The notes under the pieces are model-generated. The model did no database searches and was not told where the DNA came from. It saw only the letters and a program-made list of their open reading frames with translations. This document shows positions 5,494 through 61,057 of a stretch of DNA of 64,000 nucleotides, one piece after another. The first letter of the stretch is position 1; every line of letters begins with the position of its first letter. Made by a program: the position numbers and the translations under genes. Source of the stretch: Parvicella tangerina (GTDB taxonomy: Bacteria > Bacteroidota > Bacteroidia > Flavobacteriales_D > Parvicellaceae); contig NZ_OU015584.1 in assembly GCF_907165195.1 (NCBI RefSeq), positions 1,302,001-1,366,000 of the forward strand, read 5' to 3'.

Positions 5494-5912
5494 TGAAATT
5501 ATTCGTTTCGCTACTTTTTGTGGCTGTTTTATTATTTTCTTGTTCGAAAAAGAAGTTTGAAGGAGTAGAAGAGTTTGTTGAGTATTATTATGAGAACCAG
5601 TTCTCTCTAACTCTTGAAAAGTATTCCGATTTATATGATCTTAAGTTTTATGAATTGATGGGGGAGGCGGAACTTGAGAAAGGAAGACAACATACCTATT
5701 CTGATCTTGGAGAGTTTGAGAGTCTGGTTATTAACGATGTTCATCAAAATGATAAGAATTATAAGGAATCATTTTCGAATCAGTATAAAATACAGGTGAA
5801 CGCTAAATATGAATTCGGGACTTCGGTTGATACATTAATTATAAACGAATATAATGAAGGGGATTATAGGATTCAGATGCTAATAATGACAACAAAAAGT
5901 TATCCTCATTAA
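5493..5912 (+). CDS. Small putative lipoprotein downstream of ettA
   Basis: The 139-residue protein has a clear lipoprotein signal: a hydrophobic stretch followed by lipobox LFSC, with the lipidated Cys at residue 17 followed by SKKK. The mature part is polar, rich in Tyr, Glu and Lys, with no recognised domain. Its GTG start at 5493 uses the last base of the ettA stop codon, which implies translational coupling. It ends inside the last four bases of the convergent thioesterase gene. Function unknown. Confidence 0.7.
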   Translation: MKLFVSLLFVAVLLFSCSKKKFEGVEEFVEYYYENQFSLTLEKYSDLYDLKFYELMGEAELEKGRQHTYSDLGEFESLVINDVHQNDKNYKESFSNQYKIQVNAKYEFGTSVDTLIINEYNEGDYRIQMLIMTTKSYPH

Positions 5913-6352
5913 ATAGTTTTCACAGGCTTTTTTAGACCTCTTTTCTCCATAGGGTAGATGTTGAAGGTTCCAAGTGCTTTAGAAACTAACTCTCCAGTTT
6001 CTTCTTTAAAGATCTTAGCGCTGGTACAGATCAGGCTTTTTCCTTGGAATTCAATTTCACCCTTTCCAATTAACTTGTCTCCCAGAAAAGTTGGTTTGAA
6101 GTAATTAACCTTAAATTCTACCGTGCTCACTAGATTACCATCATCATAAACCGCTGTTAATGCAGTTGTTCCCAAAACAGCATCCATCATAGCGGCAGTA
6201 ATTGCTCCATGGCCAACACCTGGACTGCTCAAATGCTTTTCAGCAATCGTGGTTCTGTACTCAATGTCACCCGGACCGTGAACAGTAAGTTCAAAGTCTA
6301 AGCCTTTGTCCACATTGTTAAACTTGTCGTAGAGTCCCTTTACAGTATCCAT
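5909..6352 (-). CDS. PaaI-type hotdog-fold thioesterase
   Basis: The 147-residue protein fits a single hotdog domain. The region LSSPGVGHGAITAAMMDAVLG near residues 42-62 matches the PaaI/YigI thioesterase pattern (HGG/HGA followed by an acidic residue in the helix). The VEFKVNYFKPTFLGDKLIGKGEI segment is the usual beta-strand region with a double-displaced substrate site. It would hydrolyse acyl-CoA thioesters in the cytoplasm; the substrate cannot be read from sequence. It overlaps the convergent lipoprotein gene by four bases at its 3' end. Confidence 0.85.
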   Translation of the reverse strand: MDTVKGLYDKFNNVDKGLDFELTVHGPGDIEYRTTIAEKHLSSPGVGHGAITAAMMDAVLGTTALTAVYDDGNLVSTVEFKVNYFKPTFLGDKLIGKGEIEFQGKSLICTSAKIFKEETGELVSKALGTFNIYPMEKRGLKKPVKTI

Positions 6353-6461
6353 TTCTAATTGTTTTTTGCAAAACTAATCATTTGTTTAGTATGCATGCAT
6401 ACAGGTGGATAACTCTACAGGTGATTTTTTCGTTTGGCACAATTCATGATTCTTGTAAAGT

Positions 6462-6974
6462 ATGAAAGCAAAACTGGTTATTACTTTTATCGTTTTATTG
6501 ATGCTTTGCATAGGTGATTTTTTTGCTCAATCGGATACTTTGCAAGAAGATAATTGTACCTATCACTATTATTCTAATGGCGCTGTTTCTGTGAAAATCA
6601 CTCCATGGCAGGAACAAAAACGAACCATCACGTTATACAACCTTGAAGGAGGCGTCACTTTTTCTGCAGAAGATGTGCACATGAGTTACTCGGTGTCGCA
6701 CATGTTAAAGTTTCACCAAAATGGAGCCGTTAGCGAAATGGTGGAATCAACTAATCCTGGTGCTAGTAGGTATTCCTATAAAGCCACTATGACTTTTAAT
6801 ACAATCAACGAGCCGCTTAAAATGACCAAGAGTAAAACGCCTTCTTCACTGGAAGATCTCGTTGAAGATAATGCGCCTTGGTTCTGGGATAAGAAGTCTG
6901 GTGTTTGGAAAAAACAAGAAACAATTGAGTGTCAACCGGTAAAGCCTAATGAGCATTACCCTAACAAAAAGTAG
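6462..6974 (+). CDS. Secreted protein of unknown function
   Basis: The 170-residue protein has a signal peptide (residues 1-23, ending DFFAQ). The mature part contains short YHYYSNGAVSVKI and LKFHQNGAVSEMV repeats, which resemble the toxin-antitoxin YwqK/MORN-like beta-strand repeats found in Bacteroidota secreted proteins (weak similarity, inference). No catalytic motif is seen. It lies alone between the divergent thioesterase and purC. A TGGCAC word at about 6436 looks like half of a sigma-54 site but has no proper -12 half. Confidence 0.65.
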   Translation: MKAKLVITFIVLLMLCIGDFFAQSDTLQEDNCTYHYYSNGAVSVKITPWQEQKRTITLYNLEGGVTFSAEDVHMSYSVSHMLKFHQNGAVSEMVESTNPGASRYSYKATMTFNTINEPLKMTKSKTPSSLEDLVEDNAPWFWDKKSGVWKKQETIECQPVKPNEHYPNKK

Positions 6975-7042
6975 TTGTTTTTTCTGTTCAAAACAATTCA
7001 TAGATTTGAACAACTCCATCCATGCGATAATTGAGAACCACT

Positions 7043-7050
7043 TATCTTTG
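7043..7050 (+). promoter_or_regulatory. -7 box upstream of purC
   Basis: TATCTTTG matches TAnnTTTG, 20 bases before the purC ATG. No convincing TTG box is at the right distance, so this is only a candidate. Confidence 0.4.
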
Positions 7051-7069
7051 TGTATCAATTTATAATTCA

Positions 7070-8020
7070 ATGAACGCAATAAAAGATATCGCATTTAACT
7101 TCCCAGGGCAAACCAATCATTACAAAGGTAAAGTAAGAGATGTGTACAGTATCGATGAAGATTTGTTAGTGATGGTGGCAAGTGACCGTATTTCGGCCTT
7201 CGATGTGGTGTTGCCTAAGGGAATTCCCTATAAAGGTCAGGTTTTAAATCAGTTAGCAGCAAAGTTTTTGAAGGCTACTGAAGATATTTGTCCGAATTGG
7301 TTGATCGACTCTCCAGACCCAAATGTGAGTGTAGGTAAAAGATGCGAGCCGTATCGTATCGAGATGGTGATTAGGGGGTATTTGGCTGGTCATGCCTGGA
7401 GAACCTATAAAAGTGGAGAAAGAGTGTTGTGTGGAGTAACCATGCCAGAAGGGATGAGAGAAAACCAAAAGTTTCCTGAGCCGATTATTACTCCTGCTAC
7501 CAAAGCGGATGAAGGACACGATGAGGATATTTCGAGAGAAGAGATCATTGCTCAAGGAATTGTATCGGAAGCAGATTATATCAAATTAGAAGAATATACA
7601 CGCAAAATCTTTCAAAGAGGAACGGAGATCGCTGCAAAGCAAGGACTGATCCTAGTGGATACAAAGTATGAGTTCGGAAAAATAGGAGATGAGATCTTTT
7701 TAATGGATGAGATTCATACGCCTGACTCTTCGAGATACTTCTATGCGGATACGTATGATGAATTGTTGGAAGCAGATCAACCTCAAAGACAATTGTCTAA
7801 AGAGTTTGTTAGAGAGTGGTTGATGGCTGGAGGTTTCCAAGGGAAAGAAGGTCAAACGGTACCAGAGATGACAGATGAATTTGTACAATCGGTGACGGAT
7901 CGTTATATTGAACTCTACGAAAAGGTTACTGGAGAGAAATTTATTAAAGCGGATGTTTCAGATCCTGTGAATCGAATTCAAAAGAATGTGGAGGCTTGTC
8001 TAGCTGGTCTTAAAGTATAA
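7070..8020 (+). CDS. purC: Phosphoribosylaminoimidazole-succinocarboxamide synthase (SAICAR synthetase)
   Basis: It catalyses the ATP-dependent joining of aspartate to CAIR in purine synthesis (cytoplasm). The N-terminal KGKVRDVY, the [12 protein letters not shown] segment, the [15 protein letters not shown] loop, LVDTKYEFG and [12 protein letters not shown] are all family landmarks. The ATG at 7070 (MNAIKDIAF, 316 residues) fits. A longer frame from a TTG at 7031 would run through the -7 promoter box. The SUI1-like gene begins four bases after the stop and is likely co-transcribed. Confidence 0.96.
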
Positions 8021-8023
8021 ACT

Positions 8024-8365
8024 ATGGGGAAGAACAAGAATAAAAAGAATATAGTCTATTCTACCAATCCAGACTTTAACTATGAGTACGATGAAGATGA
8101 GGTAGAAGAAACGCTACCACCAGAAGAGCAGTTGCTTTATGTTTCTATCGATAGAAAGCAACGAGGGGGAAAGACCGTTGTCTTAATCGAAGGTTTTGTA
8201 GGTGAGGAAGATGACCTAAAGGATCTAGGAAAACTCCTGAAGTCGAAATGTGGAGTTGGTGGTTCTGCAAAGAATGGAGAGATTACTATTCAGGGGGATA
8301 AGCGAGATAAAGTAATTGAGATTTTAGAAAAAGAAGGTTATCAGACAAAGCGGAAAGGAGGGTAG
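8024..8365 (+). CDS. SUI1/YciH-type translation factor
   Basis: This 113-residue protein has a charged N-terminal tail followed by the SUI1 (eIF1-like) fold: KQRGGKTVVLIEGF, then the LKSKCGVGGSAKNGEITIQGD motif near residues 73-93, in which the Cys/Gly pattern is diagnostic. Bacterial members resemble eIF1 and may act on start-site fidelity; their role is not well settled. It starts four bases after purC, so it is probably in an operon with it. The family assignment is firm. Confidence 0.9.
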   Translation: MGKNKNKKNIVYSTNPDFNYEYDEDEVEETLPPEEQLLYVSIDRKQRGGKTVVLIEGFVGEEDDLKDLGKLLKSKCGVGGSAKNGEITIQGDKRDKVIEILEKEGYQTKRKGG

Positions 8366-8522
8366 TTGAAAATCTGAAATTAGAAATTAGAAAGCTGATT
8401 TGTTAGGTTTAATCAAAAGTCAAGCGTCTAATATCCAGTGTCCAACGTAGAAAGTCCAACTTCATTAATTAAAAGATTATTAAGTTTTTTCAACAATGAC
8501 AACCTATACCCATTACAATTAT

Positions 8523-8530
8523 TAAATTTG
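8523..8530 (+). promoter_or_regulatory. -7 box upstream of sucD
   Basis: TAAATTTG fits TAnnTTTG and lies 41 bases before the sucD start. No clear TTG box is found 19-20 bases upstream. The 205-base spacer 8366-8570 otherwise holds AT-rich sequence with short GAAATTAGAAA-like repeats. Confidence 0.4.
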
Positions 8531-8570
8531 AGACAATTAATTAATCAGAAACATTAAGTAACATAATAAA

Positions 8571-9449
8571 ATGAGTGTACTAGTAAATAAAGATTCAAAA
8601 GTAATCGTACAAGGATTTACAGGAAGCGAAGGAACATTCCACGCAGGACAGATGATTGAGTATGGAACTAACGTTGTGGGTGGAGTGACGCCAGGAAAAG
8701 GTGGTCAAACTCACTTAGACAAGCCAGTTTTTAATACGGTTGAAGAAGCTGTTCAGAAAGCGGGGGCTGATGTTTCGATTATCTTCGTTCCACCAGCATT
8801 TGCTGCTGATGCAATCATGGAAGCTGCTCAAGCAGGAATTAAAGTGATCGTTTGTATTACGGAAGGGATTCCAGTAGCTGATATGGTGAATGTAAAGGAA
8901 TACTTGTCAGATAAAGATTGTACACTTATCGGACCGAACTGTCCAGGGGTGATGACTGCTGGAGAAGCTAAGGTTGGTATTATGCCAGGGTTTATCTTCA
9001 ACAAAGGTTCTATCGGAATCGTCTCTAAGTCAGGAACTTTGACTTATGAGGCAGTAGATCAAATTAGTAAGGCAGGATTAGGTCAGACAACTGCAATCGG
9101 AATCGGAGGAGATCCAATTATTGGTACAACTACGAAAGAGGCTGTTCAATTGTTGATGGCAGATCCAGAGACGGAAGGAATCATTATGATCGGTGAGATC
9201 GGAGGGAACCTTGAGGCAGAGGCTGGAAAGTGGATCAAAGAGCATGGAACTAAACCAGTTGTAGCTTTCATCGCTGGAGAGACAGCTCCTGCAGGTAGAA
9301 CAATGGGGCACGCTGGTGCAATCGTTGGTGGGGAAGAAGATACAGCTGCTGCAAAGAAAAGAATATTGAGAGAGTGTGGAGTTCACGTGGTAGATTCTCC
9401 AGCTGAGATTGGAAAGAAAATGGTTGAAGTATTAGGTGTTACTGCTTAA
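8571..9449 (+). CDS. sucD: Succinyl-CoA synthetase, alpha subunit
   Basis: The alpha subunit of the TCA-cycle enzyme that interconverts succinyl-CoA and succinate with nucleotide phosphorylation. The CoA-binding Rossmann domain starts with [16 protein letters not shown]. The phosphohistidine loop GHAGAIVGG (residues about 246-254) is intact. IGPNCPGVM and [12 protein letters not shown] are conserved as well. At 292 residues it is full length. The beta subunit gene sucC is not adjacent, as is usual in Flavobacteriia. A terminator hairpin follows at 9474. Confidence 0.97.
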
Positions 9450-9473
9450 TTAGATACAACCTTTAAATAATTG

Positions 9474-9508
9474 AAAATCCTGATGCTCATTTTGAGTGTC
9501 AGGATTTT
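9474..9508 (+). terminator. Rho-independent terminator of sucD
   Basis: A 10-bp perfect stem AAAATCCTGA (9474-9483) / TCAGGATTTT (9499-9508), with a further T-rich run to 9515. Confidence 0.85.
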
Positions 9509-9521
9509 TTATTTTAGTGCT

Positions 9522-9668
9522 ATGCGTAAAGCTATTTCATACATGCTATTTACATCTCTTATGGTAACATTTGTAGGGTGTTATCAAGAACAAGGTGAGG
9601 TGGAGGAGAGTACACGCTGCCCATCAATTTCACGATCGACTAGCCACTACAGAGTAAACCATCGGTAA
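9522..9668 (+). CDS. Possible 48-residue lipoprotein
   Basis: An ATG at 9522 opens a short frame with a lipoprotein-like leader: MRKAISYMLF, a hydrophobic stretch, then VGC with Cys at residue 20 followed by YQEQGEVEES. The remainder is short and ends with basic residues. An in-frame TTG further upstream lies inside the sucD terminator and is unlikely. The 3' end overlaps the convergent methyltransferase gene by 39 bases, which is unusual. It could be a decayed lipoprotein gene rather than a real one. Confidence 0.35.
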   Translation: MRKAISYMLFTSLMVTFVGCYQEQGEVEESTRCPSISRSTSHYRVNHR

Positions 9669-10430
9669 CTTTCCTTCCATGCCTTTAATCTGATATTTTT
9701 TTTCTGAGATTTTTGTGGTATTCGCGAAGCAATCATAAGGAGAGTAATCATATTCGTTGAAATCTTCAATTTGCAAACCTTGACTTTTTAATGCTTGCAT
9801 GACCTCGCCTAAAGAATGGTTCCATGAAACAGTTTTCGGTTGACTTATTACCTCTCCATCAGTATAGGTTTCTATCGAAGATGTTATGATGTCTTCTCTG
9901 TTAAAATAGGAATAAGAAATTTCATTAAAATTGTCGTCAAACATCCAAAGTACAGGGTGGAATTCAACAAATATTAACTTACCTCCAGCTTTGAGTAGGT
10001 TTTTAATTGTTTCAGCCCATTTGTTGATGTTTGGTAACCAGCCTATTGTGCCGTATGTTGTAAATACGATATCAAAATCATTAGGTAAGAATTCATTTGC
10101 ACGATAGACATCTGCACACACAAAACGGGCGTCTAGCCCTAGGTCTGAATTAAGTTGCTTCGCTGTATTTATAGCCTTGTCAGAGAAGTCCAGCCCAGTT
10201 ACCTTAGCTCCCATGCGAGTTAAAGAAAGTGAGTCCAACCCAAAATGACATTGAAGATGAGCAATTTTCTTTGCTGTCACATCTCCTAGTAAACCTAGTT
10301 CAATTTCGTTAAGTGAAGTTTCGCCAATTCTGAAACTGTTAATATCGTAAAAATCAGAGTTGTAGTGAGTGTCAACTCTGCTATTCCAGTTTGATTTATT
10401 TATGTTCAAATAATCTTCGTTTGGCTTCAT
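9630..10430 (-). CDS. Class I SAM-dependent methyltransferase
   Basis: A Rossmann-fold methyltransferase of about 266 residues. Motif I is AHLQCHFGLDSLSLTRMGA, followed by the acidic TGLDFSDKAI strand end and the FDIVFTTYGTIGWL motif near the catalytic pocket. The C-terminal region fits the 'Methyltransf_25/11' family. Its substrate is unknown. The ATG at 10430 is one base beyond the stop of the upstream OmpP1 gene, so it is co-transcribed. A TTG six codons upstream is less likely. Confidence 0.85.
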   Translation of the reverse strand: MKPNEDYLNINKSNWNSRVDTHYNSDFYDINSFRIGETSLNEIELGLLGDVTAKKIAHLQCHFGLDSLSLTRMGAKVTGLDFSDKAINTAKQLNSDLGLDARFVCADVYRANEFLPNDFDIVFTTYGTIGWLPNINKWAETIKNLLKAGGKLIFVEFHPVLWMFDDNFNEISYSYFNREDIITSSIETYTDGEVISQPKTVSWNHSLGEVMQALKSQGLQIEDFNEYDYSPYDCFANTTKISEKKYQIKGMEGKLPMVYSVVASRS

Positions 10431-11966: not shown

Positions 11967-13379
11967 TTAACCTCCTCTTCCTGATGATTTTGCAGATGGG
12001 GTTTTGCTTCCGCCACCAGAGCTTCCTCCTTTGAAGCTACCACCACTTGAACTTGATCCTTTGAACCCACCAGAGCTACCTCTGCTACCAGAATACGATC
12101 CGCTTGAGCCAGATGATGACCCACTTCCTTTGTGCGTTCCGCTACTGTTGTAAGAACCTCCGCGAGAACCAGAATTGTATGATCCTGAACCAGAACCTGA
12201 ACCGCTGGAAGAAGGCTTATAATAGTTTCCTCCAGAGTTGTAGTGAGTATCTTTTTTTCCACTACTGCTTCCGCTACTATTGTAGTGATGACTTCCTCCT
12301 GAACCTTTATCGTACGTAGGTTTTGCTGGAGTGTACTTCACAGGTTTTGACGTAGACCATGAAGAATTTGTCTTATTTGGCTTGTTGTAGGTATTAGACG
12401 AACCGTTAGGCTTTTTATTCACTACATCTTTATAGTAGCCTTTTTCTGGTTGGTACGTAGTAGGAATTTTGTAAGAACTACCACTAGAAGCCGAATGCCC
12501 CACAGGCTTGGTGTCGGTCATACTAGACATCGAAGTATAATAATTTTGAGGAGCCTTAACTGATGTCCCGTCATTACCTACATTTACTCCAGGTTTGACA
12601 GGCTTTCCAGGTTCGTCATTGTTGTCGTTGTTATTGTTAACTACTGCACTCCCTATTTTCCCTTTTACATTTGACCTTGTGATGTTGTAATGTTCAATTG
12701 AAGTCCCTTCATTATTTGAACTGTTTGTGGTTCCCGAAGACATTCCGCTGCCGTGGTGACCACTGTAGGTATTATTATTAGAAGAATAGTCGCCATTAAC
12801 GTTACTTCCGTAGTTGTACCAGTTATTATACCCACTTCCATAACCATATCCATAATTGGTGAAATAAGGATTATAACCGTAGCCGTATGGATTGTTGTTG
12901 TAATAATTGTTGTATCCATAACCGTAACCTCCATAAGGATTGTAGTAGTTGTTGTAAGCACTAAACCCATAAGAAGAGCCACATCCATAGGAATTATTGT
13001 ACCATGAATTATAGCCATAGTTATTATTGTAACTGTAGGGGTAGTAATAGTTATTGTTCCAGTTGTTGCAATTGCAATTACAGTTGTTGTATCCTGGGGC
13101 ATTGTAACCGTAGCCACCATAGTAGTAATTGTTTTGCGTACTGTAATTCCCAGACTGAGATGGCGTGTAATAAGCAGAAGGCTGCTTGTTGTTCTGAGCA
13201 TAGTTCTCATCGTAGTAATCCTCATTCTCAAAATAGTCGTCAGAAGTTTCTGTTCCTGCTACTACTCTGGGTTTAAGGTCACCATACACATCATCATCGT
13301 AAGCGAGGTCTTTCGATGACGTACAAGAGGAAGCGCCTATAAGTGCAATTCCAAATGATATGAAGATTAATTTTTTCAT
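11967..13379 (-). CDS. Low-complexity (Asn/Tyr/Gly then Ser/Gly) lipoprotein
   Basis: The 470-residue protein has a lipoprotein leader (lipobox GASSC, Cys at residue 19). An acidic, tyrosine-rich stretch (about residues 25-65) is followed by a long Asn/Tyr/Gly region (about 70-225) with repeated NNYY, YGYG and GYNN units and a Cys-Asn cluster. A Ser/Gly-rich C-terminal third ends in basic residues (GRGG). No folded domain is recognised. The composition is prion-like. It is probably surface or periplasmic, attached by lipid. Large frames on the other strand here are composition artefacts. The OmpP1 gene follows 38 bases after its stop. Function unknown; adhesion or matrix building is only a guess. 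Confidence 0.8.
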   Translation of the reverse strand: MKKLIFISFGIALIGASSCTSSKDLAYDDDVYGDLKPRVVAGTETSDDYFENEDYYDENYAQNNKQPSAYYTPSQSGNYSTQNNYYYGGYGYNAPGYNNCNCNCNNWNNNYYYPYSYNNNYGYNSWYNNSYGCGSSYGFSAYNNYYNPYGGYGYGYNNYYNNNPYGYGYNPYFTNYGYGYGSGYNNWYNYGSNVNGDYSSNNNTYSGHHGSGMSSGTTNSSNNEGTSIEHYNITRSNVKGKIGSAVVNNNNDNNDEPGKPVKPGVNVGNDGTSVKAPQNYYTSMSSMTDTKPVGHSASSGSSYKIPTTYQPEKGYYKDVVNKKPNGSSNTYNKPNKTNSSWSTSKPVKYTPAKPTYDKGSGGSHHYNSSGSSSGKKDTHYNSGGNYYKPSSSGSGSGSGSYNSGSRGGSYNSSGTHKGSGSSSGSSGSYSGSRGSSGGFKGSSSSGGSFKGGSSGGGSKTPSAKSSGRGG

Positions 13380-47783: not shown

Positions 47784-50700
47784 ATGAGATATAGCTATTT
47801 GATTATTGCACTTGCCTTATTCTTTCTAACACTTACTTCAGAAAAATGCATGCCGTCTAAGCACACGCAGCCAGAAGAAGTAATTACATCGCCATCTCCG
47901 GGAGATCAACCAGAAAATACAGATCCGATCAAATATGAATTCATAGGGGATTATCCTGATCGCTGGAAGAAAATAGACTCATTGAATAACCTAGGGTTGT
48001 ATAAATCGGCTTTGCAAGAGGTAAATGAGATTTATGAACTTGCGAGAAAGGACAAAAATTATCCTCAAGTGATCAAGGCTCAAATGCATCGTCTAAAGTA
48101 CAATACTTACCTCACCGATGACGATTATATTCAGGCTATCTATGAGATGGATAGTCTTACAGAACATGCCGAGTTTCCGTTGAAGCAGATCTCTCACTTA
48201 CTCACAGCAAAAATCTACCACGGTTTTTACAATTCTAATAGGTGGACGATCATGAACCGGACGAATACACAAGACTTTGACAACAAGGATGTCCGAACGT
48301 GGGACTTGAGAAAGATCGCTCAAACCATAACCTACCATTATACGATGGCAACTTCAGAATCAGATAGGTTGAGCAAAGTTAGCACGGATGATTTTAAAGA
48401 TATTTTGGCCAATAGAACGGCAGAGAATTATGAAAATATGCTTAAGTATCGTCCTACGCTACTTGATTTTATCGGACAAGAATGCTTGACTTTTTTCCAG
48501 TCGGCTGAGTTTGGTTTATCTCAAAGCGACTTGCGATGTACGCTTGATGATGTGAATTTGCTGCGTAATAACAAGGATTTTTTGAAAGTAAATATTCATT
48601 GTCAGGATAGTTTGGCAAATAAGATTTATGCAGCTCAACTTTTACAACAACTCACTACCTTACACCTCAATGATGAGACTCCTGAAGCGCTAGTCAACCT
48701 GACTATTCAACGATTAAAATTCATTAAAAACAACCTGACTGTTGAAAACAAAGAAAAGGTCTATGTCAACACCTTGGATGAATTGATTACAAAATATCTT
48801 ACTAACCCAGTGGCTGCTGAGCTCATGTATGAAAAAGCGCAGTGGTTTTATTCCAATAGAAATGCTAATAGTCAGGATGAAAAGGAAAAATATGGTTATA
48901 AGACAGCTCATCAAATCTGTAGTCGTGCGATCAAATTGTTTCCAAACTCTTTTGGAGCCAAGCAGTGTCAATACTTACTCGATCAAATAGAGGCAAAAGA
49001 ACTGTCGATCAACCTGGAAGGAGTAATGCTCCCCAACACGAATCATCGATACAAGGTGAATCATAGAAATGTTGATGAACTCCATTTCAAACTGTATCAG
49101 TTACCCAAGGATTACATGTTGCCGTATGAGTTTGATAAAGATGTGAAGAATGTGGTTGAACAGATCATGTTAGACGGAGAAGAGCTGAAGTCTTGGGAAG
49201 AAACACCTCCCAAAACACAAGATTATGAGTCACACAGTTATGAGAAAATCTTGGAAGGATTGCCACTTGGGAGGTATTGTCTTTTTGTTGCTGATCACGA
49301 GCAATTTGTTGTTGAGAATGGAAAAAATACGCAACATGCATTTTTTCAAGTGTCTAACTTCGCATTAGCATCGAATAATATTGGAGAACACAATACAAGA
49401 GAGATTCGTGTTTACGATCGGTATAGTGGTAAAATGTTGTCAGGTGTCAAGGTTCAACTCTACGAGTACGTTTACAACAAGTTTAAGAAACGAAGTGAGT
49501 ATCAAAAGTTATCTTCACATACCACAGATGCAGAAGGTAAGATCAGGTTTTCTACAAAGCATGACTATAAATCAGTTTATGCAGAACTAACCAAGGGAGA
49601 GGACTATTATTTTGACGGAGCAGGAATTTATGTAAATGACTATCGTTATAATTACGATAACAACTACACCACTACACATTTCTTTTTAGATCGTAAAATT
49701 TACCGACCTGGACAAACCATATATTTTAAAGGGATTGTAGAGAGTAACTCAAATGGGAATCACAAAGTGATCGCCAATAAAAAGATTACGGTAACGCTTT
49801 ATGATGTTAATTATCAAAAAGTGAAATCACTAGAAGTAACCACAAACGAATATGGTTCATACGCTGGTGAATTTACAGCTCCTGATGCTGGTCTGAACGG
49901 ACAAATGCGTATCGCAGATAATTACAATAGCGTTTATTTTCAGGTGGAGGAGTACAAACGACCTAAGTTTCAGGTTGACTTTGACCCTGTGAAAGGCTCT
50001 TACAAGTTAAACACGGATGTTAAAGTGGTTGGAAATGCGGTGGCGTATGCGGGTAACCAAGTCGATGGTGCTGCAGTGAAATACCGTGTTGTGCGTAACG
50101 CGTACTTTCCTTATTGGTGTTGGTATAAATGGGGTTATCAGCCATACTCCGGTTCCTTTGAAGTTGCACAGGGAGAAGTTACTACCGATGAGAATGGGCA
50201 ATTTGAGATTGTTTTCAATGCCAAAGAAGATAAGTCGGTAGATCGAAAATTTTCGCCTACTTACACTTATCAGATTGTTGCAGACGTAACGGATATTAAC
50301 GGTGAAACCAGGTCAGGACAGACTTATGTTTCTGTTGGTGTCAATGCCATGAACCTTGCGCTTAATATTCCTGATGAGATGGACAAAGCTAAGATGTCGC
50401 ATTTTAAGGTGTCTACTACTAATCTCAATGGAGAACCAATTGATGCGGATGTGAACATTACCATCACCAAATTAAAAGCTCCCGATCAGGTCTTTAGGAC
50501 TCAGCTTTGGGATGTTCCTGATCAAAAGCTAATTCCGATTGGAGAATATCAAAAGAACTTCCCTCAAGATGTCTACGATCAGGAAAATTTACCTCAAAAT
50601 TTCTTGAAGGAAAAAGGACTACTGAATTTTTCTGTAAATACGGCCGAAAACGATTCCGTAAACTATGGCAACAAGAATCACTGGGATCCAGGCTACTATC

Positions 50701-53700
50701 ACGTACTTGCTAAGTCTATCGATGAGTTTGGTGAAGACGTGCGCTATGAAAAATACATAAGGATCTATGACTCTCGAGACAATAAAGTACACAATAATGA
50801 TGTGCTCTGGGTGAAGCAAATTTCTGGGGCAGTTGAACCTGGTGAATATGCTGAGTTCCTGGTTTCTTCAAAAGATGAGATTAAATTGAACTACAAGGTA
50901 GTTAAAGACAACAAAAAGGTGGAGGAAAAGACCATCGCACTCAAAAATGAACAAAAGAAACTGTCCTTCAAGATTACTGAGGAAGACCGAGGCGGCTTTG
51001 AGGTCTATTTCTCTACTGTCAAAAATGAACGATCTTATTATCAAACGCAATTTGTTTCAGTTCCTTTCACGAATAAGGTGTTGAAGATGGAGTTCGAAAC
51101 CTTCAGAAATAAGATGCTGCCCGGTAGCAAAGAAAAATGGAAAGTAAAGATCTCAGGCGCTAAAGGCGAAAAAGTTGCTGCAGAAATGGTAGCTGCCATG
51201 TATGATGCTTCGTTGGATGAATTCGCAAGTAATTACTTCTCCATGTACCTTGATTATAGCAAAGGGTACTACTACAATTACACTGGTGGTGGTTTTGCCG
51301 AATCGTTCAAAGGATTCAAATTAGCTTATGCTACGGTGCACAATTATCAATGGAATACCTATTCAAGTATGCCCTATCGAAACTATCCCTATATGGATAT
51401 GTTTGGTTATTATCCTAGTTATTACTTGCGTAATGGTGGTTATACCTATGGATGGGGAGGCGGTTACCGAGGTGATGCTGATTACTACAGTAACGCAGAG
51501 GTGACCACTATGGCAGTTTCTGGTGCTACATCTGCGGATGAAGGAGGAATGGATGTGGTAATGGAGGAGAGTGAGTCTCGCAATGCTCCAATGGCGGATA
51601 TGCCAGTGACTGAGAGCCAAAAAGAAGTGTCAGGCGAAGTGGCTCAGCAAACATCTCCTGGTGTCGGTGGTGGTTTATTTGATGGAAAACTGGAAGGCAA
51701 TAAAGACAAGACAGTTGACCTATCGAATGTGAAGGCTAGAACAAACTTTAATGAAACGGCTTTCTTTAAGCCGCACCTGGAGACGAATAGTAAAGGAGAG
51801 ATCATTTTTAGTTTTGAAATGCCTGAGAGTTTGACAGAATGGAAATTCTTGAGTATGGCACACACCAAGGATTTGTCTGTTGGCTACCTATCCGAAACAG
51901 CAATCACGCAAAAGGACCTCATGGTAGTTCCAAATGCACCTCGCTTCTTTAGAGAGGGAGATAAAATTGTGTTAAGCACGAAGATTTCGAATTTGACGGA
52001 AGAAGGTATGGCAGGACAAGTACAGCTATTCCTCACAGATGCTATATCTGGAAAAGAGATTGATGTGGCATGTAAAAATGTCAATGCACAACAATCGTTC
52101 AGGGCAGAGGCAAAACAAAGTACTTCAGTAGAATGGGAGTTAGAAATTCCTATGGATTTGCAGGCCTTGACGTATAAAATCGTTGCTAAGGCGGGTGATT
52201 TCTCTGATGGTGAGGAAATGACCTTGCCCGTACTTACTAACAGAATGATGGTAACTGAGAGTATACCTCTCTACATCAATAAAAAAGGAGAAAAGACCTT
52301 TAAACTTCAGAATTTAATAGATAGCGAAGATTCTGAGACGCTAACTCATCATAAATTGACTATTGAGTATACTTCTAATCCTGCCTGGTATGCTGTTCAA
52401 GCATTACCTTACATGATGGAATATCCATACGAATGTGCTGAACAAACTTTCTCCAGATATTATGCCAATGCAATTGCAGCGCATATTGTGGATGCACACC
52501 CCAAAATAGAGAAAGTGTTTGAGGAATGGAAAAATAGTTCTCCAGAAGCATTGTTGTCAAACCTAGAGAAGAATCAAGAGTTAAAATCTTTGATTCTTGA
52601 AGAAACGCCATGGGTGCTCAATGCAAAGTCTGAAAGTGAGAGCAAAAAGAGAATTGCATTGTTATTTGACATGCACAAGATGAAGAAGGAGTTGAACAAA
52701 GCGATGAAAAAACTAAGGGGGATGCAGCTTGGAAATGGTGCTTTTCCTTGGTTTCATGGTATGAATGAATCGCGATACATTACGCAGCATATTGTATGCG
52801 GTATGGGACATCTAAACAACCTAGGTGTGATCAACTCTAAAGTTCATTTCAGGGAATGGCAAATGATCAAAAAAGCGATGTACTATTTGGATATGGAAGT
52901 GTTGGATGATTACGAGTACATGTTAAAACACTATCCGAATTACAAAGATTCTAAGCATATCAGTTACACCCATTTGCATTGGTTGTATGCAAGAAGCTAT
53001 TTTGATTTCCCTGTGCCAAGTAACGTAGAACCAGCTTATGAATTTTATCTGAATCAAGCTAAAAAGTACTGGCATACGGATAATCTCATGACTGAAGCAA
53101 TGACAGCGCTGCTATTAGAACGTCTTGATGAGGAGGGTAAAGTACAGGACGATATCATGAAATCACTATCAGAACTTGCTATTCATGACGAAGAGATGGG
53201 GATGTATTACAAGCGAAACCTGATGGGGTACTATTGGTATCAAGCGCCCATTGAAACGCAAGCTCTATTGATCGAAGCGTTTGATGAGGTAGCAAAAGAT
53301 GATGAGGCTGTTGAGGAGCTCAAGGTTTGGTTATTGAAGCAAAAACAAACCACGCATTGGAAGACAACCAGAGCAACTGCAGAGGCATGTTACGCACTAC
53401 TATTAAGAGGGACAGATATTTTAGCAAACGATGAGATTGTTGAAGTGAAGTTGGGTGACATGAAAGTTGAGCCTTCCAAAACACAGGCTGGAACAGGTTA
53501 TTTTAAGGAGTCATATCAGCCTGATGAGATCAAACCAGATATGGGTAATGTAACGGTGACAAAACAAACAGATGGTGTTTCTTGGGGCGGACTTTACTGG
53601 CAGTATTTTGAGAATTTAGATAAGATAAAAACACATGAATCGCCTTTAGCAATCAGTAAGCAATTGTTTATAGTTCAATTGAATGAGAATGGCGAATACA

Positions 53701-54062
53701 TGACACCGATTAAAGATGGTTCTGAGTTAAAAGTCGGAGATAAGGTGCGTGTTAGAATAGAGATTCATACGGATAGAGATTTAGAATACGTTCACCTGAA
53801 AGATATGCGTGCAGCTGGGTTTGAACCCGTAAATGTAGTGAGTAGATATAAGTGGCAGGACGGACTAGGGTATTACGAATCTACGAAAGACGCTTCCACG
53901 AACTTCTTTATGGATTACTTGAGTAAAGGAACGTATGTGTTTGAATACGATCTGAAAGTCTTCCATAAAGGTGATTTCTCCAATGGTATTACAACCATGC
54001 AATGTATGTACGCTCCTGAATTTAGTTCGCATTCAGAGGGGGTGAGAGTTGTGGTGGAATAA
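47784..54062 (+). CDS. Alpha-2-macroglobulin family protein with intact thioester
   Basis: A 2092-residue secreted or anchored protease-trapping protein (known role of the family). The leader MRYSYLIIALALFFLTLTSEKC ends at a Cys not in a clean lipobox. An unusual tetratricopeptide-like helical region (about 40-420) precedes the macroglobulin domains. MG2 has IYRPGQTIYFKG near 635, and the A2M domain starts FNETAFFKPHLETNSKGEIIFSFEMPESLTEWKF near 1317. The thioester motif CAEQ lies at residues 1551-1554 in YPYECAEQTFSRYYA. A C-terminal receptor-like domain follows. It is alone, with no PbpC neighbour. Tyr/Gly-rich insert around 1160-1240. Confidence 0.92.
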   Translation: MRYSYLIIALALFFLTLTSEKCMPSKHTQPEEVITSPSPGDQPENTDPIKYEFIGDYPDRWKKIDSLNNLGLYKSALQEVNEIYELARKDKNYPQVIKAQMHRLKYNTYLTDDDYIQAIYEMDSLTEHAEFPLKQISHLLTAKIYHGFYNSNRWTIMNRTNTQDFDNKDVRTWDLRKIAQTITYHYTMATSESDRLSKVSTDDFKDILANRTAENYENMLKYRPTLLDFIGQECLTFFQSAEFGLSQSDLRCTLDDVNLLRNNKDFLKVNIHCQDSLANKIYAAQLLQQLTTLHLNDETPEALVNLTIQRLKFIKNNLTVENKEKVYVNTLDELITKYLTNPVAAELMYEKAQWFYSNRNANSQDEKEKYGYKTAHQICSRAIKLFPNSFGAKQCQYLLDQIEAKELSINLEGVMLPNTNHRYKVNHRNVDELHFKLYQLPKDYMLPYEFDKDVKNVVEQIMLDGEELKSWEETPPKTQDYESHSYEKILEGLPLGRYCLFVADHEQFVVENGKNTQHAFFQVSNFALASNNIGEHNTREIRVYDRYSGKMLSGVKVQLYEYVYNKFKKRSEYQKLSSHTTDAEGKIRFSTKHDYKSVYAELTKGEDYYFDGAGIYVNDYRYNYDNNYTTTHFFLDRKIYRPGQTIYFKGIVESNSNGNHKVIANKKITVTLYDVNYQKVKSLEVTTNEYGSYAGEFTAPDAGLNGQMRIADNYNSVYFQVEEYKRPKFQVDFDPVKGSYKLNTDVKVVGNAVAYAGNQVDGAAVKYRVVRNAYFPYWCWYKWGYQPYSGSFEVAQGEVTTDENGQFEIVFNAKEDKSVDRKFSPTYTYQIVADVTDINGETRSGQTYVSVGVNAMNLALNIPDEMDKAKMSHFKVSTTNLNGEPIDADVNITITKLKAPDQVFRTQLWDVPDQKLIPIGEYQKNFPQDVYDQENLPQNFLKEKGLLNFSVNTAENDSVNYGNKNHWDPGYYHVLAKSIDEFGEDVRYEKYIRIYDSRDNKVHNNDVLWVKQISGAVEPGEYAEFLVSSKDEIKLNYKVVKDNKKVEEKTIALKNEQKKLSFKITEEDRGGFEVYFSTVKNERSYYQTQFVSVPFTNKVLKMEFETFRNKMLPGSKEKWKVKISGAKGEKVAAEMVAAMYDASLDEFASNYFSMYLDYSKGYYYNYTGGGFAESFKGFKLAYATVHNYQWNTYSSMPYRNYPYMDMFGYYPSYYLRNGGYTYGWGGGYRGDADYYSNAEVTTMAVSGATSADEGGMDVVMEESESRNAPMADMPVTESQKEVSGEVAQQTSPGVGGGLFDGKLEGNKDKTVDLSNVKARTNFNETAFFKPHLETNSKGEIIFSFEMPESLTEWKFLSMAHTKDLSVGYLSETAITQKDLMVVPNAPRFFREGDKIVLSTKISNLTEEGMAGQVQLFLTDAISGKEIDVACKNVNAQQSFRAEAKQSTSVEWELEIPMDLQALTYKIVAKAGDFSDGEEMTLPVLTNRMMVTESIPLYINKKGEKTFKLQNLIDSEDSETLTHHKLTIEYTSNPAWYAVQALPYMMEYPYECAEQTFSRYYANAIAAHIVDAHPKIEKVFEEWKNSSPEALLSNLEKNQELKSLILEETPWVLNAKSESESKKRIALLFDMHKMKKELNKAMKKLRGMQLGNGAFPWFHGMNESRYITQHIVCGMGHLNNLGVINSKVHFREWQMIKKAMYYLDMEVLDDYEYMLKHYPNYKDSKHISYTHLHWLYARSYFDFPVPSNVEPAYEFYLNQAKKYWHTDNLMTEAMTALLLERLDEEGKVQDDIMKSLSELAIHDEEMGMYYKRNLMGYYWYQAPIETQALLIEAFDEVAKDDEAVEELKVWLLKQKQTTHWKTTRATAEACYALLLRGTDILANDEIVEVKLGDMKVEPSKTQAGTGYFKESYQPDEIKPDMGNVTVTKQTDGVSWGGLYWQYFENLDKIKTHESPLAISKQLFIVQLNENGEYMTPIKDGSELKVGDKVRVRIEIHTDRDLEYVHLKDMRAAGFEPVNVVSRYKWQDGLGYYESTKDASTNFFMDYLSKGTYVFEYDLKVFHKGDFSNGITTMQCMYAPEFSSHSEGVRVVVE

Positions 54063-55706: not shown

Positions 55707-58700
55707 TCACCAAATTACATAATCCAGTTCCTGATTCTGAATTCTGGCAGTTGGTGTCTGCTTACCGTGAGACAATTTTGTTACCATCTCAGAAACATAG
55801 ATCTGTAACTCTGAAAGCATGATTTGCCCATCTTCATTCAGGTCTGCAGAACCATTGCGTAGTCCAAATAACAAACTGTAAGTAAACAATCCATTTTTCC
55901 ACTCTGAGCTCTCCATGGCAAATTCAGCTCCTCCAGCAGAGGAAAGAACAGTAGCTCCAGTACCTCTTCTAAGGTCTGTAAATAACTCTTTCATCATTTT
56001 TGAAGGACTCGCTTCTATTTCGGATAAAGAAGGTCCTACAGATCGGAACATGACATCTTCTTCCTCAACAACATCTTCATTACTAACTAACAACTCTTCC
56101 TTTTCTACCTCACCAGAGTGACAAGTGTCCATGATCAAAATACGTTTTAATGGAGCTATATTGTCCAGTAATGCCTCCAGAAGGTTGTAAGCAAGACCGT
56201 TTTCAGATGGCTGGTTAAAATTAACATCATGGGTACCATAGTAATAATCATAATTTGCATCTAATAACCCATGTCCGGCAACAAAAACCATTACTACATC
56301 GTCTATTCCCGCCTGATCAAAGAAAGACTTTAATGACGTAATGTTATCGATAACGGCTTCATCATTGGTGATCGTTTTGGTATATACATTATCGTAAGTA
56401 GTGTTACTCCCTTCAAAAATAGCAGCGAGATCACGAGCATCTTTAGCCGCATAGTTCAGATTAAATCGCTCGTCCTTATATTCAGAAGTTCCAATCGTAA
56501 CCAGATATAAGTTTGGCTTGGCCTCATCTGTGCAAACCACTTCAATGGTTTCTTTAAGACTTTCTAAACCGTTTTTTCCAGCCACAGCAACTTGTATCTT
56601 GTTACTTCCAGAGGCTAGTTCTACCGTGATCTTTTCATTAAGTGTATTTCCCGATATTACTTTGCCTTGCATACCGTAAATAGGCACATCATTATTCCAA
56701 ACCTTTAACCTGCCTAATGATCCATCCTTAGCATTTGCCGTAATACTAAACGTCAATTTCCTCTGATCCGTAGTTAATGGGATAGATTCGAAGCCATTGA
56801 TCGTCAGTTCAGGTAAAGTACTGATGTTACCAAGGTCAGCCTCCTTTAAACCTAATTTCTTTAGTCGCTTTTGGTAAGCCATGTAATAAAGCTCTTTTAA
56901 TGCTTCATCTTCACTGTTCATGGCTTCTAATACAATGTCTGGTCTGTTGTATTTAGCATCAAACTGCTCAAAAGGGTAAGCTTCACTTCCTATTTTAAAG
57001 GTAACCAGCTCTTGCCCTTCTTTAGTAACCTTGTAATACTGCTCTGGTGTTTTGAAGATCGCATTTTCGTTTTCGCCCACCATCACAAAACGTTCTTTAC
57101 CCGTCTCTGGATCAAAAACCGTCAGCGAACCATCTTTAGAACTCACGCCAACATAGCCAAACTTATTTACCTGAACATCCGTAACCAAATTGCATGGAAT
57201 TGGAGGCGTACGGTTGATCTTATTGTCCATAATGTCCATGAAGTTGATATTATTATCATCAATAGTAATGACATGATCCAAGGGCGTATGAGTCATTACA
57301 GGAAAACCAGCAACCTTCTCTTTTTTAACACCAGTAATATTAGATAATGTTTCCTCAGAGTTGTAAGGACTCCCTAGCACCGATTCAAAGTCGTATGAAT
57401 AAATACCGAGTCCTGTATTTACAAAGAGTTTATTTCCGTCTTCACTGAAACCAATGAACGGCTTTCTCGACATGGTTAAGCGCATGTTGAAATCTAAAAC
57501 ACGATACCAGCCACTTGTTCTCCAGGCCACAATTCTTCCTGTGTTAAAGGCGGCAACCAAATACCTTCCATCATTCGATAGGGTAATTGCATTGGCAGCT
57601 TGAAACATTCCATTCATTTTAAGATCTTCCGTCTCATTTACCTCCAGTTGATTTTTAGTGGTATTCTGAATATCTTCAATGTAAACAATAGATAGAGGCG
57701 TTTTTCCACTTCCCCCAACCGCAATAAACTCCTCTTCCTGATCAAATATGATATCGTAGAACTCTTTTTGCCCAGTTTTTACATAGTCAATGTAAGTTGG
57801 AAGTCCATCTTCTAAACTATAAAGTCTCACTTCATCGTTCTTAAAAACCGTTAGCATGTAATTCCCTTTCGGAGAGATAATGATTTGATCCTCTTGAAAA
57901 CCAAACCTCCTGAAAGCAGCTTTTCCTGCTAATTTACTTTCTTCTTTGGCGTAAGTTTTCGCAGCAGTGGTTTTTTCTTCAATTTTGTCTTTGGCCTTTT
58001 CGGTTATTGAACTAAAGTCTCCAGAAGCAATTTGCTTCCATTTACTCACTTTTCCTTTTGTGATGGTGGTATTTTCCACTTTGTCTTTCGCATCTTCTTT
58101 AGCTTCCTCTGTTTTAGCAACTACATTGTCTTTTCCTCTATCTTTAAGTTCTAGTTTCCTTTCAGGAAAAGTGTAAGATCCCAGACGCTGAGCACTGTTT
58201 AGTGACCAAATATCTAGCTGTTGTCCTCTAAGCGTGTACAAATAGTTATCCGCCTGACTAAAGGCAAAAGCATCGATTGGATTAACATTTCCTTTGAGCA
58301 TCTTGGTGATGCTTCCTCTATTTACATTCCAGAGTTGGATTACGTTATTTTTAGAGTAGATCTTGTCAAAGAGTAAAGTTTTGTAACCTGCTGAGGCAAT
58401 ACTCTCTCCCTGGTAATTGAAGGAGATAACCTTGACTTTTTCTCCAGATTCCTGATCCTTCAGGTTAGCAATGGTTTCTCCTTTACTGTTCCAAATCTTG
58501 ATACTACCGTCATCATCGATCATGGCAAGTCGAGCAACACCTTGTGGGACGTCTATGTCTAGCGGATCTTTGATCGTCATAAATTCATGAATGATCTCAC
58601 CCTCCTCACTTAATACAAATACTTCTCCTTTAATGGTTGTAGCAAAAGCGACTTTTTCTTTCGTGCCAAAAATATGCTTCAGCGGATACTGTGTATCGGG

Positions 58701-59273
58701 CTTAAACGATTCTACTTCATCTCCAGAAGTGATTGATATCAAGTATGCTCCCTTTGAAGATGCTACCCACCACAGTTCTGGATTTGATGACACAGAAGAA
58801 ATGTCGTTGATACCACCCTTACTTTTATAGATGGTGCGTTCTTCCTCCCCTTTAAGTGTAATAAGTTGATTAGCCTTATAAGAGATTAAGTATTCACCAC
58901 TGGGATCGTATGAAATAAGTTCTTGACCATAGCTCAATTGAGAACTATCCGCTTTTTGCCAGGTATTCAGATCCCAATAAAAACACTTGTTGTCTTCATC
59001 CAACGAAGCAATTTCATTCTTTTTCGGGTTAAAAAAGAACTTTGTTATTGGCTTTTCATGTCCGATGAGCTGACCGATTAACTTGGCAGAGCGAACGTCC
59101 CAGATCATGATGTTGTTATCTCTTGAGTTCGTAGAGGCCACATACTTACCATTGGGGCTGTACTTAAGGTTGTTAATAACTCCCAGTACTTTCTCTTGTG
59201 TCACCAGCTCAACATCCTGAGTGAAGTAGGGTAGGCTAAGTGAAATTAGGATAGAAAATAAAAGTAATCTCAT
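55707..59273 (-). CDS. WD40-repeat caspase-family (C14) protein with an EF-hand-like loop
   Basis: The 1188-residue secreted protein has a signal peptide (ending PYFTQ). WD40-type propeller repeats span about 30-350 and 450-720, separated by a Lys/Glu/Ala-rich helical linker (about 370-450). The caspase fold begins near 925 (NLYLVTIGTSEYKDERFNLNYAAKDARDL). The catalytic dyad is His1001 in VAGHGLLD and Cys1051 in MDTCHSGE. Near the end DLNEDGQIMLSE (from Asp1144) looks like an EF-hand or dockerin-type calcium loop. Activation by calcium is inferred. It is monocistronic. CAAAGTTA (59294-59301) reads TAACTTTG, a possible -7 box. Confidence 0.9.
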   Translation of the reverse strand: MRLLLFSILISLSLPYFTQDVELVTQEKVLGVINNLKYSPNGKYVASTNSRDNNIMIWDVRSAKLIGQLIGHEKPITKFFFNPKKNEIASLDEDNKCFYWDLNTWQKADSSQLSYGQELISYDPSGEYLISYKANQLITLKGEEERTIYKSKGGINDISSVSSNPELWWVASSKGAYLISITSGDEVESFKPDTQYPLKHIFGTKEKVAFATTIKGEVFVLSEEGEIIHEFMTIKDPLDIDVPQGVARLAMIDDDGSIKIWNSKGETIANLKDQESGEKVKVISFNYQGESIASAGYKTLLFDKIYSKNNVIQLWNVNRGSITKMLKGNVNPIDAFAFSQADNYLYTLRGQQLDIWSLNSAQRLGSYTFPERKLELKDRGKDNVVAKTEEAKEDAKDKVENTTITKGKVSKWKQIASGDFSSITEKAKDKIEEKTTAAKTYAKEESKLAGKAAFRRFGFQEDQIIISPKGNYMLTVFKNDEVRLYSLEDGLPTYIDYVKTGQKEFYDIIFDQEEEFIAVGGSGKTPLSIVYIEDIQNTTKNQLEVNETEDLKMNGMFQAANAITLSNDGRYLVAAFNTGRIVAWRTSGWYRVLDFNMRLTMSRKPFIGFSEDGNKLFVNTGLGIYSYDFESVLGSPYNSEETLSNITGVKKEKVAGFPVMTHTPLDHVITIDDNNINFMDIMDNKINRTPPIPCNLVTDVQVNKFGYVGVSSKDGSLTVFDPETGKERFVMVGENENAIFKTPEQYYKVTKEGQELVTFKIGSEAYPFEQFDAKYNRPDIVLEAMNSEDEALKELYYMAYQKRLKKLGLKEADLGNISTLPELTINGFESIPLTTDQRKLTFSITANAKDGSLGRLKVWNNDVPIYGMQGKVISGNTLNEKITVELASGSNKIQVAVAGKNGLESLKETIEVVCTDEAKPNLYLVTIGTSEYKDERFNLNYAAKDARDLAAIFEGSNTTYDNVYTKTITNDEAVIDNITSLKSFFDQAGIDDVVMVFVAGHGLLDANYDYYYGTHDVNFNQPSENGLAYNLLEALLDNIAPLKRILIMDTCHSGEVEKEELLVSNEDVVEEEDVMFRSVGPSLSEIEASPSKMMKELFTDLRRGTGATVLSSAGGAEFAMESSEWKNGLFTYSLLFGLRNGSADLNEDGQIMLSELQIYVSEMVTKLSHGKQTPTARIQNQELDYVIW

Positions 59274-60394: not shown

Positions 60395-61057
60395 TTAAAA
60401 TTTCCATCCAACTCTTAAAACCCCCATGTTTACTAAGGAAAGAGATGTTGATTTTTTTTCTGGGATAGGGGTGGTGGTAGAAGAATCAGTAGTTGAAGAG
60501 GCGTCTTCAGTCTGCAGTTCACCTCTTAAGTATTTAGTGTTTAAAAAACGCAACCCGATTTCAGTACCGAGATAAAGTCCTTTGTAAAGATTAAAATCAA
60601 AGCCAGAAAACACATCTACATAAATGGCAGAGATTTTTTGTTGCTGGTTATAGTTAAAGTCATTAATAAAGGTTAGCCCATCTGTTCTGGAGCCATATTC
60701 ACTTTCATTGCCAAAGCCATATCCCAAGGCACCACCAAGATAGGGAGCCATTTTGTCAAACGCAAAATGCCTTTCATAACCTAAAGATACATAGTGAGCT
60801 GCTGTGACCTCTTCAATAGATCCTACACCATCACCATCTGTTTCAAGGATTTCATTAGTTGCCGAATTATACATGAAAGACCAGTTGGTTCTGAGAACAT
60901 GTTTTTCATTAAAGTGATACCTGATTTTTAAATTATTCTGAGAGGCTCCAGTATCGCTGAGTAACCTGAACTGGGTTTCAATACTCACTTTTTTACCTTC
61001 TTGGGCGCAGAAGAACGCAGAAATGAGTACCAAAAAACTAAAAAGACAAATTCTCAT
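60395..61057 (-). CDS. Outer-membrane beta-barrel protein
   Basis: The 220-residue protein has a signal peptide (ending FFCAQ). YHFNEKHVLRTNWSFMYN and YVSLGYERHFAFDKMAPYLGGALGYGFG are typical of small Bacteroidota barrels. The end LVNMGVLRVGWKF is a beta-signal. A low-complexity Ser/Thr stretch (about 183-200) lies in a loop. It lies 172 bases upstream of the other barrel gene. Function unknown. Confidence 0.78.
   Translation of the reverse strand: MRICLFSFLVLISAFFCAQEGKKVSIETQFRLLSDTGASQNNLKIRYHFNEKHVLRTNWSFMYNSATNEILETDGDGVGSIEEVTAAHYVSLGYERHFAFDKMAPYLGGALGYGFGNESEYGSRTDGLTFINDFNYNQQQKISAIYVDVFSGFDFNLYKGLYLGTEIGLRFLNTKYLRGELQTEDASSTTDSSTTTPIPEKKSTSLSLVNMGVLRVGWKF

Follow-up and report, generated by a model that had tools for sequence, protein, structure and literature searches.

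The DNA analysed here, referred to as the window, is a stretch of 64,000 nucleotides from Parvicella tangerina (contig NZ_OU015584.1, positions 1,302,001 to 1,366,000), and its minus strand carries a gene for a protein of the peptidase C14 (caspase) family. Behind a predicted export signal, the protein comprises two modelled WD40-type propellers, a beta sandwich, and a C-terminal caspase domain with an intact His-Cys dyad and an EF-hand-like loop, DLNEDGQIMLSE. An initial annotation had described a secreted WD40-caspase with such a loop and proposed a periplasmic or surface protease gated by calcium. Its 1188-residue open reading frame, His1001, Cys1051, and two WD40 regions are borne out by the motifs, by Pfam, and by the two modelled propellers, and its C-terminal loop is recovered inside the Pfam caspase domain and under strong constraint. 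The beta sandwich at 822-914, an insertion at 376-456, a linker at 1053-1087, and seven further C14 proteins of the genome had gone unnoticed. The preferred reading, with a probability of roughly 0.6, is an exported, probably periplasmic protease of the orthocaspase type in which the loop serves as a structural calcium site.

Pfam Peptidase_C14 (PF00656) matches residues 926-1176 with 42.6 bits (cut-off 21.4), and the catalytic residues lie in GHG at 1000-1002 (H1001) and DTCHSG at 1049-1054 (C1051). The dyad is retained in all eight C14 proteins of the P. tangerina genome; among the 78 named loci retrieved as relatives, conservation of the cysteine proves little because its motif belonged to the search pattern that fetched them. 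VIA-align assigns the modelled domain to the caspase fold, with Z scores of 21.5 to plant metacaspase 4 (6w8s_A, 2.7 A over 219 residues), 21.3 to GSU0716 (3bij_B), and 20.2 to MALT1 (3uo8).

The loop sits within the Pfam match and is not appended after it. It has the twelve residues of an EF-hand loop with ligands at positions 1, 3, 5, and 12, and in both structure models it is flanked by two helices in EF-hand order, with a predicted local distance difference test (pLDDT) score of about 90-95. The initial annotation would have given way to a model with the loop buried and lacking calcium geometry; as far as secondary structure can be read, the models give a helix-loop-helix and not that picture. 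Across 79 sequences (the window protein and the 78 named loci), position 1 is Asp in 78, position 3 is Asn or Asp in 79, position 5 is Asp or Asn in 78, position 8 is Ile, Val, or Leu in 79, and position 12 is Glu in 79. The entropy is 0-0.75 bits at the ligand positions against 1.9-3.0 bits at positions 2, 4, 6, 7, and 9, and such fixed ligand positions among drifting neighbours look like the signature of a metal site. Pfam EF-hand_1 matches 60 of the 79 sequences at E <= 0.05. The 78 loci were drawn from the best 80 of 460 matches, some share one genome or genus, and the loop was absent from the search patterns that fetched them. When the window protein is shuffled 20,000 times, the strict form, D.[DNS].[DNS]G.[ILV]...E, turns up in 0.44% of the shuffles and the loose ligand pattern in 36%, so that the loose motif taken by itself is weak evidence and the argument depends on conservation. 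Judged from the models and the alignment, the loop is most likely an EF-hand that forms part of the caspase fold, in its last helix-loop-helix.

Several observations weigh against this interpretation. The EF-hand_1 score of the window protein is 15.6 bits, below the Pfam cut-off of 25.4, and Gly at loop position 6 is retained in just 50 of the 79 sequences. One of the eight C14 proteins of the genome (L011) lacks the ligand set. EF-hands usually occur in pairs, and the one in the window caspase is single. Moreover, the 79 sequences are closely related, and common descent inflates their conservation.

Visual inspection and hydropathy both suggest a signal peptide at the N-terminus, in agreement with the earlier description of the protein as secreted. 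Among the 78 named relatives, 71 have Met as the chosen start, and 67 of these pass a simple signal-peptide rule. No lipobox was found in those 71 relatives, and no type IX sorting-domain model is among the NCBIfam matches at E <= 0.1. Because of the signal peptide and the lack of both lipobox and sorting-domain match, the periplasm is preferred over the surface, so that only the first half of the proposed "periplasmic or surface" location is kept, as probable from sequence features. Elsewhere in the window, a 220-residue protein (60395-61057, minus strand) has a weak match to PorG of type IX secretion (E 0.0042, 16.9 bits against 130).

By sequence comparison, the loop is a recurrent and optional part of C14 domains, since it is present in some loci of several phyla and not in others. 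The ligand set is found in seven of the eight C14 proteins of the P. tangerina genome, five of which have the strict form (Gly6 and Glu12). A search of the phylum yielded 26 further Bacteroidota loci, with the ligand set by alignment in 11, the strict form in none, and the dyad in all 26, a trait that the profile itself favours. A pattern search downstream of the G.FT motif places the loop in 19 of 49 loci picked from the listed matches. Matches were present in 44 plasmid records, of which nine loci were examined: the loop is visible by eye in three (Sulfitobacter L174, Nonomuraea L177, and Rhizobium L180), ambiguous in L181, and not seen in five. The Gemmataceae genome locus L155 also has it. 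An EF-hand motif is annotated in 7 archaeal orthocaspases (PMC6426788, in the sections covered, as for all articles cited here); this is the precedent in the literature consulted, mostly open-access, where an EF-hand inside a Bacteroidota caspase domain was not found reported. The caspase domain of the window protein and the Sulfitobacter plasmid caspase (L174, 901-5319, plus strand) are 37.7% identical; the remaining listed plasmid matches (40 of 44 listed) reach at most 27.6%, and the Sulfitobacter gene may represent a transfer between phyla. Just upstream of another C14 paralog of P. tangerina, a 447-residue protein (L010, 7871-9214, plus strand) also ends in an EF-hand-like loop (PF00036, E 3.5e-4, below cut-off).

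A role of the loop as a calcium gate is unlikely, even though it survives best among the alternatives. On this reading the loop would hold no ion while the protein is in the low-calcium cytoplasm, the core would be unfolded or inert, and the protease would become active only after export to a calcium-rich compartment. The strong constraint on the ligand positions is consistent with this, metacaspases are calcium activated (PMC9622860), and 39 of the 47 retrieved C14 proteins with an intact 5' end look exported. On the other hand, the analogy with metacaspases, from which gating was originally proposed, does not hold at the residues concerned. In the Candida glabrata metacaspase CgMCA-I, calcium is held by Gly196, Asp198, Asp214, Thr242, Asp245, and water (PMC9622860). 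The equivalents in the window protein are H1015 (certain only to one residue, and beside D1016, which is Asp in 67 of 78 relatives), Y1029 (Tyr in 74), E1055 (Glu in 77), and K1058 (Lys in 66). By this alignment the p20 calcium ligands are mostly replaced, and a metacaspase-like calcium site was rejected for that reason. The Asp at the start of p10, a mark of most bacterial metacaspases, aligns with Gly1115 (Gly in 76 of 78), yet the VIA-align ranges extend to the last residue of the window protein; since a few Bacteroidetes metacaspases also lack the p10 Asp (PMC6426788), its absence alone excludes nothing. Orthocaspase activation is described as calcium independent in a review (PMC5756287, same limit), and many C14 relatives without a canonical loop retain the dyad.

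The gate is further weakened by the distribution of the loop. A role in checking export predicts that the loop goes with export. Signal peptides were called in the 49 loci, less two that are cut at the 5' end, by a permissive hydropathy criterion applied to each possible start within the first 80 codons, and they are present in 17 of 19 loop-bearing against 22 of 28 loop-less proteins. Without four loci that belong to the own genome and its order, the counts become 17 of 19 and 19 of 24. No association of loop and export is seen, in a test that is weak as most of the proteins are exported. Together with the replaced metacaspase ligands and the calcium-independent activation described for orthocaspases, this favours a structural calcium site.

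Somewhat less probable still is a metal-free loop, an inherited turn and helix cap whose polar residues are kept for capping or packing only. The poorly conserved Gly6 and the low EF-hand_1 score would suit it, and other C14 domains work with shortened or different loops. However, the joint fixation of positions 1, 3, 5, and 12, while positions 2, 4, 7, and 9 drift, is the pattern of a metal site.

With a structural calcium site, the protein may work as follows. The signal peptide would carry it across the inner membrane, where the two WD40-type propellers and the beta sandwich would hold the C-terminal caspase domain. This domain would use His1001 and Cys1051, and would cut most likely after Arg or Lys because two acidic residues, D945 and D1049, are conserved in 78 of 78 named relatives; by analogy with metacaspase structures, these two would line a basic S1 pocket. 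The DLNEDGQIMLSE loop is most likely a site permanently occupied by one calcium ion, which would stiffen the C-terminal helix once the protein has left the low-calcium cytoplasm. Protease activity and basic specificity are predictions here, as are calcium binding and its structural role. Self-cleavage may occur near Arg1077, which is Arg in all eight own C14 proteins, in 74 of 78 named relatives, and in 26 of 55 further rows that overlap partly with the 78 and include loci gapped in the linker. The CgMCA-I linker is cut at Lys263 and Arg307, where, in the part of PMC9622860 covered, single alanine changes did not prevent maturation.

The remaining architecture rests on two structure models, a full-length AlphaFold 2 model from an alignment of 34 sequences (pLDDT 80.2) and a model of residues 815-1188 from 79 sequences (pLDDT 86.2), in which residues 273-287 (about 1087-1101 of the protein) fall below 50. 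The window protein is a WD40 protein by profile (54.5 bits, cut-off 27) and by its modelled two-propeller fold, and the Foldseek matches listed from the PDB include the double propellers 2ymu, 5i2t, and 1nr0. The stretch 369-466 between the propellers ranges from 31 to 100 residues in the 24 rows listed. The beta sandwich has no Pfam match in the window protein, and no Pfam immunoglobulin (Ig) domain, a paracaspase trait, was detected in the fragment 815-1188 at E <= 0.05; Big_13 is found in 2 of the 79 relatives.

Table 1. Features of the C14 gene and its product (window coordinates)
Feature	Coordinates	Strand	Basis
Whole gene, 1188 residues: signal peptide, two propellers, beta sandwich, caspase domain with EF-hand-like loop	55707..59273	-	ATG start; open reading frame, Pfam, model
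Predicted signal peptide, residues 1-18 (end estimated)	59220..59273	-	hydropathy; model helix 2-17
First WD40-type propeller, residues 22-368	58170..59210	-	Pfam WD40, model, Foldseek matches to double propellers
Charged helical insertion between propellers, residues 376-456, low confidence	57906..58148	-	model block pLDDT 41-61
Second propeller, residues 463-761	56991..57887	-	model, Foldseek
Ig-like beta sandwich, residues 822-914, helices 769-814 before	56532..56810	-	strands in both models
Caspase fold (peptidase C14), residues 920-1188	55710..56516	-	Pfam; VIA-align
Catalytic His1001	56271..56273	-	motif; alignment
Catalytic Cys1051	56121..56123	-	motif; alignment
Disordered linker after catalytic Cys, residues 1053-1087	56013..56117	-	pLDDT <50 in full-length model
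Arg1077, conserved basic linker residue, candidate self-cleavage site	56043..56045	-	alignment; cleavage inferred
Helix before loop, residues 1129-1140	55854..55889	-	both models
EF-hand-like loop DLNEDGQIMLSE, residues 1144-1155	55809..55844	-	motif, alignment, entropy, Pfam
Helix after loop, residues 1153-1167	55773..55817	-	both models

The eight C14 loci of the P. tangerina genome encode proteins of 986-1296 residues with the caspase domain C-terminal in each, and most of them have an export signal; L011 has no clear signal peptide, a degenerate loop, and an uncertain start. The caspase domains are alike and the N-terminal parts have diverged. WD40 scores above the Pfam cut-off in seven of the eight, and its presence in every paralog was rejected, since the matches of L012 are confined to C14 and a weak one to CHAT. 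The L012 paralog (5876-9766, minus strand) is a 1296-residue protein with a long N-terminal part that has neither a WD40 nor another Pfam match at E <= 0.05. At 44-56% caspase identity, the N-terminal identity has a median of 29% among orthologs (77 pairs, range 23-35) and of 16% among paralogs (11 pairs, range 12-21), a comparison in which L011 is omitted, L012 is included despite having no WD40, and the "ortholog" L060 lies outside the tree clade. Since alignment is shaky at 16%, these values support only a far greater N-terminal divergence. That divergence makes it somewhat likelier that the propellers act as readers of partners or substrates.

A tree was built from 86 C14 domains and places the window protein within a 23-row clade (99/91) whose members are Flavobacteriales, Crocinitomicaceae, and Bacteroidota loci with less precise names. 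The eight own proteins are scattered over the tree (7 changes, 7 forced by supported branches), and their separate places indicate that the splits between them are old; the bootstrap is unsettled and L011 has a very long branch. The caspase profile matches in 75 of 296 sampled genomes of the phylum. Eight C14 matches are clustered in one of them (G159:C96:329062-348480) and five in another (G163:C1:215454-242131).

WD40-caspase fusions (PMC3501461) and archaeal EF-hand orthocaspases (PMC6426788) are already published, and the window protein is a variant of these. WD40 is the commonest partner domain of prokaryotic orthocaspases (10.9%, 73 sequences; PMC3501461), which share with the window protein a C14 His-Cys domain, WD40, and several copies per genome (PMC3501461, PMC2853523, PMC8283722). 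In cyanobacterial orthocaspases the partner domains are mostly C-terminal to the caspase (PMC8283722), whereas here the caspase is C-terminal and follows an export signal, two propellers, and a beta sandwich. The archaeal proteins combine C14 with the EF-hand motif in 7 cases and with an N-terminal Ig-like Big_7 domain in 15, but, in the sections of PMC6426788 covered, the motif is neither placed inside the caspase fold nor tested for constraint. Type I metacaspases (CgMCA-I, 7qp0; TbMCA2, 4afr) have the same fold and dyad, and the p20-p10 linker of CgMCA-I is cut at basic residues (PMC9622860); in contrast, their calcium lies in p20 near the dyad and the candidate site of the window protein at the p10-like end. 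GSU0716 (3bij, Geobacter sulfurreducens) has a bacterial C14 fold and an Arg aligned with Arg1077, but the matched chain is a single domain of 285 residues and the sequence match stops before the loop. The MALT1 paracaspase (3uo8) also has a caspase fold adjoining a beta-sandwich domain; the window protein differs in having no Pfam Ig family and in carrying propellers, where MALT1 has a death domain.

Discussion of bacterial caspase-like proteases has mostly treated them as acting inside the cell, in cell death or defence. Among the Bacteroidota members retrieved, the majority look exported, and several occur per genome. If active, they would make up a set of proteases of the cell envelope, each with its own targets, and the EF-hand would represent a second route by which calcium came to be coupled to the caspase fold. 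A bolder version, an exported repertoire with a shared engine and different heads in which the EF-hand replaces the metacaspase calcium site and arms the enzyme only outside the low-calcium cytoplasm, is doubtful.

Gene neighbourhoods were compared for the window and 23 loci chosen by BLAST coverage, many of whose flanks end at contig ends. Four upstream neighbours are common to the window, L046, and L047, and other lineages have other neighbours. A fixed partner gene was rejected, as the most widespread non-caspase neighbour family occurs at 7 of the 24 loci, a set in which several are truncated. A part in a conflict system directed against phage or leading to cell death, which has been proposed for bacterial caspases of the EACC type, is very improbable and was rejected, since weak matches (NCBIfam caspase_w_EACC1 at 80.1 bits under a cut-off of 140; PADLOC caspase model at E 1.2e-6) are all that favour it, whereas a signal peptide is present, no neighbour family exceeds the above frequency, and no NTPase domain is seen among the Pfam families listed, 25 of 29. 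Eleven neighbours of the window gene and of six paralogs were compared with one another, and no similarity was detected (best E 0.58).

Separated from the window caspase by two genes, a 2092-residue protein of the alpha-2-macroglobulin family (47784-54062, plus strand) has bMG10, A2M, MG2, and bait region domains and the sequence CAEQ, a thioester-like motif. In neither L046 nor L047 do the 6 kb downstream of the caspase contain such a gene. Upstream of the L012 paralog, a 294-residue protein (12369-13253, minus strand) with a signal-peptide-like start contains Tudor/Agenet-like repeats (PF05641, E 1.7e-12). In L013 (8872-12864, plus strand), a protein with a weak match to sigma-70 region 4 (below cut-off) is followed by a 1142-residue TonB_C protein, and this pair is divergent from the C14 paralog.

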